Source: a virus
Reading direction: 5' to 3' (one strand)
Virus record (IMG/VR): IMGVR_UViG_3300048839_001590
Location: 1 to 38,209 of that record
Length of the DNA: 38,209 nucleotides
Positions within the stretch are counted from its first letter, which is position 1; every line of letters begins with the position of its first letter. The position numbers and the translations under genes were made by a program. Positions 3,863 through 16,159 of this stretch are shown piece after piece. A model generated the notes under the pieces. That model searched no databases. It had not been told where the DNA came from and saw only the letters and a program-made list of their open reading frames with translations.

Positions 3863-5890
3863 ATGGAATACTACAAGAATACTCTCTGCATCTCCGTGGG
3901 AGAGCTAACCCAGGGCGAGCCAACATCGCCGGACCCCCGGGAGCAACCAATAATGACCTATTACGCTTGCAAGCACTACATAAATCGAAATCAACACGTC
4001 CGTTTACGCCGGGCGTGTAAAAACTCACCTGCGCTGCTTGCCTACGACAAGCTTCGAAGTGACATCAAGGCCAGGATATATTTTAAGATTGGGGATCCCT
4101 ACAAAGCTACTCCCAAGCATGCGTTTGAAGAGAGTATAAAAGGAGATCCTATTGCGCTTGCATTCTTCCGCGATCACCGATATAATGGTGACCGGTCTCT
4201 TCCAGAAAAGGCTAAAGCGGAGTACTATGCCAACGCAATAATACTGAACGCTACACGGGAAACACTCAACAGCAACAAGGCTTTTTGCGCAGCCCACAAG
4301 GGATCACTTAAGAACAGGTGGAATAGGATTCTTGATCTTATTAACCAGGTTGACAGAAAAGCATACCCACACACCCTTCCCTCAGATCCTCGTCGGTTGT
4401 CAGATAAGTTTCACCTGTATCAAAAGCACGGATACATAAGCCTGGTACATGCAGCCTTTGGGAATAAACACACCGAAAAGATCAACGACATGGGCAAGAT
4501 GTGGTTGTTATCTCGGTGGGCCAACCAGGTTGATAGATGTACATGCGAAGAACAGCTGCTGCTTGAGTATAACGAAAAAGCCTCTCTGGAGGGATGGAAG
4601 CAGATAAAGAGTACAGGTCCTATTCATAAATACCTTTTCAGAGAAGACATTCAGCCATTATGGCACGGTTACCGGTTCGGGGAGCTCAAGAGTAAGGAGA
4701 AGTTCGCTATGCAAATCTCCACCGAGCTTCCCTCTATGCGCGATTCGCTCTGGTACTCTGATGGTACAAAGCTCAATTATTACTATTTGACATCAGAAGG
4801 TAAAGTTGCCACATGCCAGGTATATGAAGTCATGGACGCTTACAGCGAGGTGTTTCTTGGATATCACATTAGTGCAACGGAAGATTACCAGGCACAATAT
4901 TATGCATACAAGATGGCATTTAAGACCTCCGGACACAAGCCATACCAGGTTGAATTTGACAATCAGGGTGGACACAAGAAACTTGAAGCCGGGGAGTTCT
5001 TCTCAAAATTGGCACACCTCGCCATCCGCACCCAGCCCTATAACGGAAAATCAAAAACCATTGAAAATGCTTTTTCGAGGTTCCAGCAAAACCACCTTAA
5101 GAAGGACTGGTTCTTCACGGGCCAGAACATAACCGCCAAACGGAATGAGAGCAAGGCTAACCTTGAATTCATAATGGCAAACAAAGATAAGCTGCCTTCG
5201 CTCGAAGAGGTAAAAGCAAGGTATAAGCAGCGTCGTGATGAGTGGCATCAGGGCGCGCACCCATCAACGGGCAGGCCACGACTGGAAATGTATTTCTCAA
5301 GCCATAATGACAAGTCACCGGTAGTTGATGCATGGGATATGGTAGATATGTTTTGGATCCTCCGCAAGGATCCGGTTACCTGCCGGGCATACGGTATCAC
5401 ATTTAAGGAGAAAAAAGCGCAGTATGATTACCTGGTATATTCCGCACCAAGAGTGCCGGATCAGGCATGGCTGCGAAACAATATCGATAAAAAGTTCTGG
5501 ATCAAATTCGATCCAGACGATATGGGAATCATTTACCTGTACGAAAAAGATGCCTCAGGGCTCCGATTTGTTACTGCAGCTGAAACAAAGATCACTGTAC
5601 ACCGCGGAATTCAGGAGCAGGAAGAAGGCGAAGCTGCATTGATCAAACAAATTATCGATGAAAATAAGCGTCTGCGAGAAGAATCGAAGAAGACAATGGA
5701 TGCGATCCTGAGGGAGCATGGTCAGGATGCAGAAAGTTACGGACTTTCTACTCCTGGGCTTAAAGGGATATCAAAGCACAAGACCAGGAAAAAAGCCGCC
5801 GTCGCAATTGATCCAGATAAGGCCATTAGCAACATGGTTCTGGTTTCCGAGGACGGGGAAGAAGATGAAAACTATTACAAGCATTACTAA
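3863..5890 (+). CDS. MuA-like DDE transposase
   Basis: The 675-residue protein begins MEYYKNTLCISVGEL, a start typical of Bacteroidetes Mu-like transposases, which supports ATG 3863 over the later ATG 3953. The N-terminal 250 residues hold DNA-binding helices. The catalytic core shows WYSDGTKL (D300), VEFDNQGG (D366) and KTIENAFSRFQ (E401), giving the DD(34)E spacing of retroviral-integrase-fold enzymes. The C-terminal part is a beta-barrel-like region followed by a charged tail that in MuA contacts MuB and ClpX. The enzyme cuts and joins the phage ends during lysogenisation and replicative transposition. The MuB-like gene follows 16 bp downstream. Confidence 0.95.
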   Translation: MEYYKNTLCISVGELTQGEPTSPDPREQPIMTYYACKHYINRNQHVRLRRACKNSPALLAYDKLRSDIKARIYFKIGDPYKATPKHAFEESIKGDPIALAFFRDHRYNGDRSLPEKAKAEYYANAIILNATRETLNSNKAFCAAHKGSLKNRWNRILDLINQVDRKAYPHTLPSDPRRLSDKFHLYQKHGYISLVHAAFGNKHTEKINDMGKMWLLSRWANQVDRCTCEEQLLLEYNEKASLEGWKQIKSTGPIHKYLFREDIQPLWHGYRFGELKSKEKFAMQISTELPSMRDSLWYSDGTKLNYYYLTSEGKVATCQVYEVMDAYSEVFLGYHISATEDYQAQYYAYKMAFKTSGHKPYQVEFDNQGGHKKLEAGEFFSKLAHLAIRTQPYNGKSKTIENAFSRFQQNHLKKDWFFTGQNITAKRNESKANLEFIMANKDKLPSLEEVKARYKQRRDEWHQGAHPSTGRPRLEMYFSSHNDKSPVVDAWDMVDMFWILRKDPVTCRAYGITFKEKKAQYDYLVYSAPRVPDQAWLRNNIDKKFWIKFDPDDMGIIYLYEKDASGLRFVTAAETKITVHRGIQEQEEGEAALIKQIIDENKRLREESKKTMDAILREHGQDAESYGLSTPGLKGISKHKTRKKAAVAIDPDKAISNMVLVSEDGEEDENYYKHY

Positions 5891-12167: not shown

Positions 12168-12647
12168 ATGGAAATAAGTACCGAAAAAGCAAGAAGGCTT
12201 CATGATGAAGCACCCGAATGGTTCAAGCAAGAACTCGAAGATGAGTTCGGGAAAGAGACTTTTGAAAAGAAGGAATATGAAAGATTGAATTCCTTTGACG
12301 ATTGCTGCAGAGCTTGCAGCACTACTGAGGAAGAGTTTAATAAGAAGTTCCTTCATCTTGGACTGAGTCCGGATACTTTAAATTTGGAAAGGCTCGGAAT
12401 TATCAACAAGGCTATTAATGACCCCAACTGGAAGCCAGACCATACAAATCATGATCAGAAAAAATGGTTTCCGATTTTTAAGGCGTCTTCGTCCGGGTTC
12501 GGTTTCTCGAATTCGTACTACCTCTACGAGTACTCGTGTGCGTATGTCGGTTCGCGCCTTTGCTCGGAAAACGAGGAAAGATCAACATTCTCTGGCACTC
12601 GATTTGCCAAGTACTGGGAAGCATTCATAACTAATAAAGAAGTATAA
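12168..12647 (+). CDS. DGR target protein 1a, small variable protein
   Basis: The 159-residue protein carries the variable region at residues about 106-132, read as SSSGFGFSNSYYLYEYSC and ending VGSRLC. Fixed residues (SSGFGFS, VGSRLC) frame a run rich in aromatic and other substituted residues, which correspond to AAY codons in template TR1. The N-terminal part has a charged helical segment and NDPNWKPDHTNHDQKKWFPIF, closely paralleled in the next gene (NDGWVPDYSD...RYFPWPF). Similar small SGFGFS proteins are common in Bacteroidetes phages. No signal peptide or tail motif is present, so it may act in the cytoplasm. The VR is internal, with about 27 residues after it. Confidence 0.85.
   Translation: MEISTEKARRLHDEAPEWFKQELEDEFGKETFEKKEYERLNSFDDCCRACSTTEEEFNKKFLHLGLSPDTLNLERLGIINKAINDPNWKPDHTNHDQKKWFPIFKASSSGFGFSNSYYLYEYSCAYVGSRLCSENEERSTFSGTRFAKYWEAFITNKEV
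12484..12563 (+). repeat. Variable region VR1a
   Basis: Aligned without gaps to TR1 (13088..13167), 80 positions. Twelve of the 20 template adenines are substituted and no other template base differs. Immediately after the conserved TGC, CTCG and CGAG form a short 4-bp stem (12563..12575). Confidence 0.93.
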
Positions 12648-12648
12648 A

Positions 12649-13053
12649 ATGGCCAAGGTTTCGACTAAAATCAAGAAAGCCGAGGGATTCGATTATAGAA
12701 CAATCACCTCGGTGGAGGAGGCTTGTAAGAAGCTCAATTTTGACATTACCACTATTCCCGACCTTTCGATGCTCCCTGCAGATCTAGGAGAGAAATTTAA
12801 GGCCGGGATCTTCTGCTCTATTTTTATCCTGGCAATAAACGATGGATGGGTACCTGATTACTCCGATCGTAGTCAGCCTAGATATTTTCCCTGGCCCTTT
12901 ACGTCTTCGTCCGGGTTCGGTTTCTCGTGTTCGGGCTACTACTACGAGTACTCGGGTGCGGATGTCGGTTCGCGCCTTTGCACTAATTCTTCTGAAAAAG
13001 CCCTATGGGCATTGGAGAAGTGTAAAGAGCATTATGAGAAGTGGTTGTTATAA
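12649..13053 (+). CDS. DGR target protein 1b, paralogue of 1a
   Basis: The 134-residue protein starts one base after the stop of the previous gene and shares its layout. The N-terminal helical segment (ITSVEEACKKLNFD, DLSMLPADLGEKFKAG) and NDGWVPDYSD precede the variable region SSSGFGFSCSGYYYEYSG...VGSRLC at residues about 85-111. A helical tail of 23 residues follows. The tandem arrangement points to duplication followed by divergence of the framework, while the VR is kept homologous through the common template. Ligand unknown; the CLec-like VR would expose the changed side chains on a binding surface. Confidence 0.87.
   Translation: MAKVSTKIKKAEGFDYRTITSVEEACKKLNFDITTIPDLSMLPADLGEKFKAGIFCSIFILAINDGWVPDYSDRSQPRYFPWPFTSSSGFGFSCSGYYYEYSGADVGSRLCTNSSEKALWALEKCKEHYEKWLL
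12901..12981 (+). repeat. Variable region VR1b
   Basis: Aligned without gaps to TR1 (13087..13167), 81 positions. Fourteen of 20 template adenines are substituted and no non-adenine base. It shares five changes with VR1a at the two ends (G, G near the start; G, G, T near the end). The last three probably mark the IMH versus IMH-star difference that directs homing. Confidence 0.93.
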
Positions 13054-13086
13054 TTAATAAAGGTTGTATGTCGGTAGCAGCTGTCA

Positions 13087-13167
13087 ACGTCTTCGTCCAG
13101 GTTCAGTTTCTCGAATTCGAACTACAACTACGAGAACTCGAATGCGAATGTCAGTTCGCACCTATGC
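13087..13167 (+). repeat. Template repeat TR1
   Basis: It differs from VR1a and VR1b only at adenines. Read in the VR frame it is rich in AAY codons (reading SNSNYNYENSNANV), the design that allows broad amino-acid change by mutation of the first two codon positions. It is upstream of the reverse transcriptase and 106 bp from VR1b. Confidence 0.95.
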
Positions 13168-13181
13168 ATCAATTACCGCAT

Positions 13182-13208
13182 AAACCCTGCCACTTGGCAA
13201 AAAATAAC
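13182..13208 (+). repeat. Shared post-TR block, copy 1
   Basis: This 27-nt block starts AAACCCTGCC and ends AAAAAATAAC. It matches 15767..15793 with one difference (A versus T at position 11). It starts 15 bp after the end of TR1. The other copy sits in the same place relative to TR2 although the two TRs are unrelated. Confidence 0.9.
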
Positions 13209-13270
13209 ATAACAAACAAAGAGCGCTGGTAGCGAAGTCGAAAGCGATCTTCTGAAAGCAAAGGACCACA

Positions 13271-14224
13271 ATGAAAAGACACGGGAATTTATATAACAAG
13301 ATCTGCAGTATTGAGAATCTTCGCATGGCGGATTCCATTGCCCGTAAAGGCAAACTTTCTCAGCCGGGCATCAAGGCTTTTGACAGGAACAAAGAGGAGA
13401 ACCTAAGGATCCTACGCGAGCAACTTCTGGGGAGAACATTCAGGACATCGGAGTATAAGACATTTCTCATTTATGAGCCCAAAGAAAGACTTATTTTCAG
13501 GCTTCCTTACTATCCTGACAGGATTGTTCACCACGCAGTGATGAATATTATGGAACCGATATTTGTTGCGACATTTACTGCAGATACCTACAGTTGTATT
13601 AAAAAGCGAGGCATTCATGCTGCAGCCAGGGCACTGAAGTCGGCATTAAAGGACAGTACCGGTACTAAATACTGCCTGAAGCTAGATATCAAAAAGTTTT
13701 ATCCAAATGTTGATCATGACATTCTTAAACAGCTTCTACGGAAGAAAATTAAGGATCAGGATATCCTATGGCTCCTTGATGAAGTGATTGACAGCGCCGA
13801 CGGACTACCTATTGGCAACTATTTGAGTCAGTACTTCGCTAATTTTTACCTGGCTTATTTCGACCACTGGATCAAGGAAGACCTTGGGGTTAAATACTAC
13901 TTCCGGTATGCGGATGATCTTGTCATACTATCAAAGGAAAAACCTTATTTGCACGATTTACTTGAAAGGATCCGGATCTATCTGGAGAAAAACCTTAAGC
14001 TCGAAATAAAACACACGTATCAGGTGTTCCCGGTTGATGATAGAGGAATAGATTTTGTCGGGTATGTCTTCAGGCACACCCATATCTTACTTCGAAAGAG
14101 TATTAAGAAAAGCCTTGCCCGTGCTGTAGCAAAGAAAAAGTCGCCCCAGACAATTGCGTCATATATTGGATGGGCCAAACACTGTAATAGCCGCAATCTA
14201 CTTAAAAAGGTGCTAGTGAAATAA
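13271..14224 (+). CDS. DGR reverse transcriptase
   Basis: The 317-residue enzyme shows KYCLKLDIKKFYPNVD (catalytic D139), GLPIGNYLSQYFANFYL with the SQ motif (S186-Q187) that distinguishes DGR and related group-II-like enzymes, and YYFRYADDLVILS (YADD, D215-D216). The length and compact thumb are normal for DGR enzymes. It copies TR RNA into cDNA with frequent misincorporation at adenines and, with accessory factors, transfers it to VR. It is the only reverse transcriptase in the window, flanked by TR1 upstream and target protein 2 downstream. No avd-like four-helix gene is adjacent. Confidence 0.97.
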   Translation: MKRHGNLYNKICSIENLRMADSIARKGKLSQPGIKAFDRNKEENLRILREQLLGRTFRTSEYKTFLIYEPKERLIFRLPYYPDRIVHHAVMNIMEPIFVATFTADTYSCIKKRGIHAAARALKSALKDSTGTKYCLKLDIKKFYPNVDHDILKQLLRKKIKDQDILWLLDEVIDSADGLPIGNYLSQYFANFYLAYFDHWIKEDLGVKYYFRYADDLVILSKEKPYLHDLLERIRIYLEKNLKLEIKHTYQVFPVDDRGIDFVGYVFRHTHILLRKSIKKSLARAVAKKKSPQTIASYIGWAKHCNSRNLLKKVLVK

Positions 14225-14252
14225 TGTAAATCATTTAACAAGTATTATATCT

Positions 14253-15548
14253 ATGAGAAAGAATGTGATGTTAGGTTTTTTTGGTACAGCTGCCGACTGG
14301 TATGGTGTTGAGATCAATGAGGCAAGCTCAAGCCCGAACCTTGTCAGAATAGCCTCTACTGGCTCTCTTGGACTTCATGCCACACTGCCGGTGCAATCGC
14401 TTATGAGAGGGTGTCTGCTTCTTGATAATGGAGCAGTAAATTACTACCTGAAATCAGATGACTGGTCAAAAAAGAGTGATGGCTCGGTGGCCGACCTTTC
14501 TGGAGCCGATGGACAGGTAATGATAGAAGTGCCACGGTATTTCCGCAAGGTAGAAAATCCATCTGCAGGGGTTTATCATCACAAGATTTCAGTTAGTGCT
14601 TTGCCTGGCTTTACAGAAGTGCCGAAATTCTACCTTGGGGCTTATAAAAGCTCTGTAAACAGGACAGCGCCAATCAAGCAATGGAGCATTGTGAATCCGG
14701 CTGTTGAATATCGAGGTGGAGGCAATCAGGTAGCGTGGGATGGAACTGATCGCACCTTGCTGGGTAAACCGGCAACTTCAATATCACTTGTTAACTTTCG
14801 AAATTACGCCAGAGCTCGAGCTGCAGGAGCAAAGTGGAATGTAATTACATGGAAGCATTCGATGCTACTGTATGAGTTATTTATTATTGAACATGCAACA
14901 CTAAACTCTCAGGCGGCAGTTAACGGAGCGCTTACGGGGGAGGGATTCAAGCAGGGAGGCTTGGGTGCTGGGGTTACAACCGTTCTTAGCACTGTATGGA
15001 ATACATTTAACTTATATAATCCGCTTATTCCTTGCGGCACCAGCAATCCTCTCGGCAACGGTACCGGAGAATTGACTTATACTGTCCCAAATTTTGGTCA
15101 TGCATCAGGTGTGGTCAAAGTAAATCGGTATAGGGGAATCGAAAATCCCTTCGGTGATATTTGGGAATGGTGTGACGGAGGTTCAGTTTTTCACGAAGCT
15201 GCGGGTGGAAATAGCAAGTTTTATTCCTGCGAAAATCCTGTCAACTTTGCTGATAATACTTCTAACAACTATGAGTATAGAGCTAACATACCATCGGCTT
15301 CAGGATATCCAAAGTTCATGCATCATGATGAAAAGGGAATATTTTTACCGAAAACAACAGGAGGAAATTCAGTAACATACTTCTGTGATTACTTCTATTC
15401 ACCTGGACTAGTCAATGCCTGGCGCGCCCTTTTGCGTGGTGGTAATGCGAACGCTGGCACGAGTGCCGGTTTCGTGTGCCTGCATACGACTCGCGCGGCG
15501 TCGCATACGACTGCGCACATCGGGGCTCGGCTCTGCTATCTTCCGTAA
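14253..15548 (+). CDS. DGR target protein 2, CLec-like adhesin
   Basis: The 431-residue protein ends in a variable region (residues about 391-428) reading WRALLRGGNANAGTSAGFV...HIGARLCYLP, the typical C-terminus of C-type-lectin/FGE-fold DGR proteins. Upstream, YRGIENPFGDIWEWCDGG is the conserved sulfatase-modifying-factor-like core motif. The N-terminal 150 residues (LGFFGTAADWYGVEI..., RYFRKVENPSAG) are a separate beta-rich domain, perhaps for attachment to the virion. No signal peptide. By analogy with Mtd of Bordetella phage it would be a receptor-binding protein, though it is encoded away from the tail genes. Its cognate template TR2 lies 83 bp after its stop. Confidence 0.92.
   Translation: MRKNVMLGFFGTAADWYGVEINEASSSPNLVRIASTGSLGLHATLPVQSLMRGCLLLDNGAVNYYLKSDDWSKKSDGSVADLSGADGQVMIEVPRYFRKVENPSAGVYHHKISVSALPGFTEVPKFYLGAYKSSVNRTAPIKQWSIVNPAVEYRGGGNQVAWDGTDRTLLGKPATSISLVNFRNYARARAAGAKWNVITWKHSMLLYELFIIEHATLNSQAAVNGALTGEGFKQGGLGAGVTTVLSTVWNTFNLYNPLIPCGTSNPLGNGTGELTYTVPNFGHASGVVKVNRYRGIENPFGDIWEWCDGGSVFHEAAGGNSKFYSCENPVNFADNTSNNYEYRANIPSASGYPKFMHHDEKGIFLPKTTGGNSVTYFCDYFYSPGLVNAWRALLRGGNANAGTSAGFVCLHTTRAASHTTAHIGARLCYLP
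15424..15536 (+). repeat. Variable region VR2
   Basis: Aligned without gaps to TR2 (15632..15744), 113 positions. Fourteen of 28 template adenines are changed and no other base. The first changes appear about 30 bp in; adenines in the first 30 bp are unchanged. It ends 12 bp before the end of the gene. Confidence 0.95.
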
Positions 15549-15557
15549 ATCGGAAGA
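15539..15557 (+). promoter_or_regulatory. Hairpin/cruciform just after VR2
   Basis: TCTTCCG (15539..15545) pairs perfectly with CGGAAGA (15551..15557) across TAAAT. It begins 3 bp after the end of VR2 and its loop contains the stop codon of the target gene. In Bordetella phage a hairpin of similar stem length and position is needed for efficient retrohoming. No equal structure follows VR1b. Confidence 0.75.
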
Positions 15558-15631
15558 CCGAAATCGAGCAAATCGACATTCGAGATCGTCGTTTGGTTCT
15601 TTGAAGAAATTAAAGGTTGTGCAGGTTGAAA

Positions 15632-15744
15632 GCGCCCTTTTGCGTGGTGGTAATGCGAACAATGGCACGAATGCCGGTTTCGTGTACCTGAATACGAATA
15701 ACGCGGCGTCGAATACGAATGCGAACATCGGGGCTCAGCTAAGC
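15632..15744 (+). repeat. Template repeat TR2
   Basis: It differs from VR2 only at adenines. In the VR frame it is rich in AAT/AAC codons (GGNANNGTNAG..., LNTNNAASNTNANIG). Its sequence is unrelated to TR1. It lies downstream of its target gene and 1.4 kb after the end of the reverse transcriptase gene, an unusual place for a template. Confidence 0.95.
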
Positions 15745-15766
15745 ATAATACTAAGATACCCCCTGC

Positions 15767-15793
15767 AAACCCTGCCTCTTGGCAAAAAATAAC
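15767..15793 (+). repeat. Shared post-TR block, copy 2
   Basis: Second copy of the 27-nt block, 23 bp after TR2, differing from 13182..13208 at one base. Confidence 0.9.
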
Positions 15794-15853
15794 TAATAAA
15801 AAAGCGATGTTAGTAGTAAAAAAAGCGATGGCTTTGCTTTTAAAAATGCAGAT

Positions 15854-16159
15854 ATGAAAAAGTTTTCAGAATTCAACATCAAGCCCTCAGTGGGTACATT
15901 TAACGGCAAGAAGATCAATTTTGACGAGATCTTTAACATCCCGATTGTTGTTAATGCTTACAAGATCGAGGAGAGCAAGTTCACCGGTAAGAACAGAAGT
16001 AATAACCGGCTGCAGCTTGCAATAGTGTTCAATGGCGAGGAGCGCATAACCTTTACTGGTTCTGAGGTACTAATGGAGATGATTCAAAAAGTCCCTCAAG
16101 ATAGCTTTCCCTTTGAAACAGTTATTCGAAAACGTGATAAGCGATTTGAGTTTACGTAA
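15854..16159 (+). CDS. Small DGR-linked protein, OB-fold/SSB-like pattern
   Basis: The 101-residue protein reads MKKFSEFNIKPSVGTFNGKK..., IVVNAYKIEESKFTGKNRSNN, RLQLAIVFNGEERITFTGSEVLMEMI, KRDKRFEFT. The alternation of short strands with a K-rich loop and a helix after FTGSEVL suggests a small beta-barrel such as an OB fold. Similar small proteins sit beside SGFGFS-type variable proteins in Bacteroidetes phages, as I recall. Placed directly after the TR2 cassette, it could bind single-stranded nucleic acid and serve as the accessory factor this DGR otherwise lacks. Both fold and role are inferred. Confidence 0.65.
   Translation: MKKFSEFNIKPSVGTFNGKKINFDEIFNIPIVVNAYKIEESKFTGKNRSNNRLQLAIVFNGEERITFTGSEVLMEMIQKVPQDSFPFETVIRKRDKRFEFT

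Follow-up and report, generated by a model that had tools for sequence, protein, structure and literature searches.

How can a phage with a single reverse transcriptase (RT) have three variable regions (VRs) rewritten from two template repeats (TRs) whose mutable cores barely align with each other? The window that raises this question is the whole 38,209-base virus contig IMGVR_UViG_3300048839_001590, a metagenomic fragment that encodes Mu-type transposition proteins as well as a packaging and tail module. The record looks near complete, as it spans transposition, packaging and tail genes; a DNA search for a near relative of the phage found none. An earlier note, made from the sequence, had claimed only one RT, and a single RVT_1 domain indeed occurs in the whole record. 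The source is a Bacteroidota phage with the remains of two DGR systems that now appear to share the one surviving RT, laid out as follows.

12168..12647, + strand: target gene 1a, 159 aa, small VR1-type protein (phrog_11581, E 1.7e-17)
12482..12564, + strand: variable region VR1a (15/23 template A changed, 0 other)
12649..13053, + strand: target gene 1b, 134 aa, paralogue (phrog_11581, E 6.5e-12)
12900..12982, + strand: variable region VR1b (15/23 template A changed, 0 other)
13062..13080, + strand: TR1 leader (GGTTGTATGTCGGTA...), predicted 5' arm of a long-range stem, pairing with TACCGCATAAACC ahead of the trailer (stem covaries in relatives)
13086..13168, + strand: template repeat TR1, mutable core (TR/VR scan)
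13183..13282, + strand: TR1 trailer, RT-17 RNA (RF03020; 42.8 bits, cut-off 40.4, E 4.4e-6)
13189-13198, + strand: TR1 trailer hairpin GCCACTTGGC
13271..14224, + strand: reverse transcriptase, 317 aa, VR1-type clade by tree (PF00078, E 4e-20; phrog_1423, E 1.3e-123)
14253..15548, + strand: target gene 2, 431 aa (tail protein by phrog_5302, E 1.1e-102; 61% to L082)
15421..15537, + strand: variable region VR2 (18/32 template A changed, 0 other)
15539..15557, + strand: hairpin TCTTCCG-TAAAT-CGGAAGA directly 3' of VR2 (sequence and fold)
15614..15630, + strand: TR2 leader (GGTTGTGCAGG...), predicted to pair with CCTGCAAACC at 15762-15771
15629..15745, + strand: template repeat TR2, mutable core (TR/VR scan)
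15768..15855, + strand: TR2 trailer, RT-17 RNA (RF03020; 51.6 bits, cut-off 40.4, E 2.7e-8)
15774-15783, + strand: TR2 trailer hairpin GCCTCTTGGC
15854..16159, + strand: accessory gene, 101 aa, predicted OB-like barrel (family normally directly 3' of RT; closest to L082, 66%)

Adenine-restricted rewriting at three sites

Scanned by script over both strands, the whole window gave exactly three TR/VR pairs, TR1-VR1a, TR1-VR1b and TR2-VR2, the same matches that the earlier note had proposed. Mismatches fall at 15/23 template adenines in VR1a, 15/23 in VR1b and 18/32 in VR2, with no substitution at the 60, 60 and 85 sites of other bases, respectively (hypergeometric P for all mismatches on A: 4e-11, 4e-11 and 7e-13). 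The adenine-only pattern described in the note therefore holds at all three sites; its hand counts (12/20, 14/20, 14/28) were slightly low because the boundaries taken were shorter. A direct comparison of VR1a with VR1b gives 11 differing sites, every one at a template adenine, so the two VRs were rewritten separately. VR2 ends 11 nt short of the end of target gene 2, and VR1a and VR1b lie within the last third of their own genes; adenine-only TR/VR differences and a VR near the 3' end of the target gene are thus both present, as in DGRs. The RT itself is DGR-type (PF00078, phrog_1423, 36.8% to BPP-1 brt), with YADD and GLPIGNYLSQ motifs visible. The hairpin at 15539..15557 is a candidate target-recognition stem-loop, by analogy with BPP-1 (PMC12875486).

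The note had also singled out the placement of one template downstream of its target and far from the enzyme. The former is ordinary, a TR downstream of its target being normal for DGRs; the unusual feature is that TR2 lies 1.4 kb beyond the RT, with no RT behind it.

RNA handle, accessory and target proteins and probable hybrid origin

The statement that TR1 and TR2 share no sequence applies to their mutable cores and fails for the flanks, which do align and carry a common RT-17 trailer. Both upstream flanks open with GGTTGT, and AAACCCTGCC[A/T]CTTGGCAAAAAATAAC follows both cores, with 0/1000 shuffles aligning equally well over the hairpin. Under the RF03020 covariance model both trailers score above the gathering cut-off of 40.4, TR2 outscoring TR1. 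Rfam's RT-17 RNA covers the 3' trailer only, and the leader-trailer stem round the core is an addition from the present analysis. In a set of 127 distinct relatives, GGTT is matched by a complementary AACC, and the eight positions after GGTT form pairs with the bases preceding AACC; over seven scored positions 91% of cells are paired, against a shuffle mean of 69% and maximum of 72%, and stem positions show several different pair types each. Such covarying pairing points to a stem that encloses the mutable core, formed in the window by TATG-CGGTA/TACCG-CATA for TR1 and TGCAGG/CCTGCA for TR2. The case for this predicted stem rests on covariation; when the templates are folded singly, their minimum-energy structures lack the long-range pairing. 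A literature search, with the Weinberg 2017 source paper outside its coverage, found no paper tying RT-17 RNA to DGR templates.

Relatives of the RT were gathered from viral contigs and genomes, giving 244 loci, 209 of them with detectable TR-VR pairs. These 209 are of two kinds, one with small tandem VR1 targets and a 70-90-nt TR and the other with a single P0004-like tail target and a 110-118-nt TR, and the RT tree separates them (split support 96). The window RT falls in the VR1-type clade (151 rows), and L082, L086, L222 and L234 in the other (38 rows). The right half of the window is closest to L082, whose layout is target2-TR2-RT2-accessory: the distal trailer of TR2 scores 65 with L082 (next 43) and ranks TR1 only 32nd, and the accessory tree unites the window with L082 (support 100/100). 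In L082 the RT is flanked by TR2 and the accessory gene; the window lacks RT2 precisely at the junction of 'GCAGAT' with the accessory ATG, which occupies the expected RT2 start position. VR1-clade loci in turn have the accessory gene directly 3' of the RT, where the window has target gene 2 instead. The two halves have thus lost complementary parts, and, as judged from sequence and trees, the locus is a hybrid of VR1a-VR1b-TR1-RT from one lineage and Target2-VR2-TR2-accessory from another, without its RT. The common handle, the fusion of two DGR lineages with RT loss and the identity of the accessory gene had all been missed by the note. In L082 itself, positions 4440-4520 hold a template core without its middle, between AATGCGAA repeats and beside an intact VR, reflecting either a real deletion or an assembly collapse.

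The accessory family was present in 149 related loci of the set as then collected, and across this DGR clade most loci have a conserved OB-like protein directly 3' of the RT. The AlphaFold2 model of the window protein (pLDDT 89.8) has as neighbors the OB-fold nucleic-acid binders PriB, SSB and RPA, at modest values (best Z 6.4), and no Pfam match to Avd was found among the neighboring proteins tested; the protein is a candidate accessory factor distinct from Avd. Profiles of target2 and the accessory protein had no sequence match in the PDB. The VR1-type small target family has 335 members in related loci, and the window's two (12168-13053) are predicted to form helices round a beta hairpin bearing the VR. 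The VR1b model does not clearly resemble any solved fold: Foldseek found no match with E below 3, and Z in VIA-align peaked at 3.4. On this modeling, VR1-type targets are possibly a non-lectin DGR target. They may also not be tail proteins, since the termite-gut phage L255 (G102 contig C374) has its VR1 cassette surrounded by RecT, helicase and methyltransferase genes and its VR2 surrounded by tail genes.

Hairpin length offers a further lead. The trailer hairpin measures 11 nt in 106/131 VR1-clade elements and 10 nt in 22/26 TR2-clade elements; the 10-nt form is seen in the window's TR1 and in all RT-less TR1 copies identified, whereas the nearest relatives of the window RT have 11 nt. TR1 in the window therefore agrees with the lineage of the accessory gene, not with that of the RT, which suggests, as a lead only from about three independent cases, adaptation to or conversion by a TR2-lineage partner. 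Overall, hairpin-length changes number 12 on the RT tree and 14 on the accessory tree, too close to decide.

Mirror-image loci and competing readings

The window's layout is repeated in 0/209 related loci with detectable TR-VR pairs, so the search for the same two-template layout that the note had proposed gave no second case; it did give the mirror image. Phages L222 and L234, about 10% diverged, carry a VR1-type target and a TR1 with RT-17 and no RT behind, followed by target2, VR2, TR2, RT and accessory gene, with one RVT_1 per whole record. Between them, VR1 differs at 10 sites, 9/10 at template A (P 6e-6), and VR2 at 9 sites, 9/9 at template A (P 1e-6), against 1/99 differences in TR1 and 0/109 in TR2. 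A similar arrangement occurs in three termite-gut Bacteroidales MAGs: alongside a TR2-type DGR, each has a TR1 cassette that lacks an RT and contains two VRs. Between L255 and L259 TR1 is identical, and the differences in the VRs fall at template A in 14/14 and 10/10 cases; the termite bins also hold other, more distant RVT_1 proteins. With no RT at TR1 in either member of each pair, the simplest account is that homing went on after RT loss, and RT-less templates are live in these relatives. Diversification between relatives is seen for both template classes (L222/L234; L255/L259); a single RT accompanied by variation in the two target classes, which the note had set against variation at one class only, is thus found. 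In the L142 genome the RT-less TR1 cassette lies about 35 kb from the DGR on the same phage-like contig.

These arrangements are rare. Among 99 whole virus records, two true RT-17 copies occur only in L222 and L234; RT-17 was found in 4/395 sampled Bacteroidota genomes, and RT-less copies in 3/40 genomes preselected for such an RT. A megablast search for L222 relatives among named phages gave no match. Several candidates were set aside: the second RT-17 match in G044 (L068) is spurious because it lies within an ORF with no template there, the extra copies in G502 and G506 belong to complete additional DGRs with their own RT, and the apparent second templates in L009, L106, L117, L126, L172 and L210 look like weak or VR-VR artefacts, judging by the scan output. 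G517 has a weak partial second RT-17 match. At L136, a Dyadobacter locus, one TR serves four VRs over 12 kb. The VR2-type targets of L083 (6001-7242) and L084 (1040-2281) show 17 differences over their final 130 nt, and neither RT nor RT-17 RNA was found in their 39-kb and 62-kb records.

Most probably, the window holds a composite DGR in which one RT serves both RT-17-handled templates, after a fusion of two lineages with loss of RT2. Two DGR lineages would have met in one phage, the first contributing small VR1 targets, TR1 and RT1 and the second the tail target, TR2, RT2 and accessory gene, and RT2 and the accessory gene of lineage 1 would subsequently have been lost. The one RT left, probably together with the remaining accessory protein, would recognize a common RNA handle, made up of the RT-17 hairpin and trailer and the stem by which leader and trailer close off the template, and copy whichever core the handle encloses, misreading adenines; the mutated cDNA would then home through sequence identity, TR1 copies going to VR1a and VR1b and TR2 copies to VR2. 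We infer that the DGR is active in the window phage itself, that its RT copies both templates there and that the accessory protein takes part.

Other histories would also leave one RT beside two templates. TR2 and VR2 could be a relic in which RT2 was lost recently, the adenine-only pattern of VR2 is older and the surviving RT serves TR1 only. RT2 is indeed absent from the record, and adenine-only differences give no date for the last homing event; we nevertheless consider a relic unlikely, as TR2, its leader and its trailer are intact with an RT-17 score above that of TR1, the 0 non-A substitutions at 85 VR2 sites set a 95% upper bound of 3.5%, and RT-less templates in relatives most simply went on homing after RT loss. 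Alternatively, a different RT from the TR2 clade may act on TR2 in trans, encoded by the host, by a co-resident prophage or by phage sequence beyond the record. The window being a metagenomic fragment, RT2 could lie in the host or in missing sequence; trans action is documented for Thiohalocapsa DGRs (PMC10907252), and L083 and L084 have VR2-type targets without an RT or RT-17 RNA in their records. That a helper acts here is nonetheless quite improbable, given a record that looks near complete and RT-17 RNAs in so few sampled Bacteroidota genomes, a rarity that makes the chance presence of a second helper unlikely. A single-lineage origin, with TR1 duplicated and the copy taking on a new core, would account for two trailers that are nearly identical at the hairpin, but is very hard to credit when the distal trailer of TR2 sides with L082 far ahead of TR1 and target2 and the accessory gene likewise come from an L082-like lineage.

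Known systems and wider meaning

The note's view of one RT with two template and two target classes is supported, but the layout is rare rather than unique, multi-template DGRs having already been published (PMC6642488). According to the part of Yan et al. 2019 covered here, more than one TR occurs in about 20% of 271 multi-VR DGRs, with two TRs and six VRs in Stenotrophomonas SKA14 (PMC6642488); within that part no common RNA handle, lineage origin or RT loss is reported for such DGRs, and some cases are atypical. Treponema metagenomes likewise include individuals with multiple TRs (PMC4891356). The DGR of Bordetella phage BPP-1 resembles the window in its RT, adenine-specific rewriting from TR to VR, structured RNA downstream of TR and stem-loop after VR, and differs in having one template, one target and the accessory Avd instead of an OB-like protein (PMC12875486). 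The tentaclin phages nd4/nd12 use one template for two target genes (PMC10743442); Bacuni phages also have two target genes (PMC8143477), and no report of a second template was found for them. At Thiohalocapsa PB-PSB1 incomplete DGR loci are served in trans from elsewhere, but the remote targets match the helper's own TR, with no second unrelated template (PMC10907252). Roux et al. state that their own DGR survey would not detect remote targets (PMC8144416). Closer at hand are the DGRs of crAss-like and other Bacteroidota phages (cr50, cr53, cr55, crAssphage LMMB), with RTs 49-61% identical to that of the window; cr50, cr53 and cr55 share a target2-like tail protein and, unlike the window, have a single template beside their own RT. 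No VR1-type cassette was found among those compared. Multi-template DGRs and trans action are thus already known; the common handle, the reciprocal RT loss and the evidence that RT-less templates still work are new.

Template choice by a DGR RT has, to our knowledge, been dissected mainly in a single phage. In the present loci templates have been swapped naturally between enzymes in both directions, the window having kept RT1 and L222/L234 and the termite-gut set RT2, and the RNA element common to all composites points to the recognition signal. Templates with the RT-17 handle are best explained as interchangeable parts for one RT. More tentatively, and short of an even chance in our estimation, templates may be plug-in units throughout this RT clade: any core between leader and RT-17 trailer would be mutagenized, and the trailer hairpin would be read by the OB-like accessory protein and RT, so that DGR halves could reassort freely between phages and either RT could be dropped. 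The natural swaps and their common RNA element lead to two predictions, that a short transplantable tag would recruit a hypermutating RT to a chosen template, and that surveys pairing each RT with its adjoining template would miss templates that have no neighboring RT.
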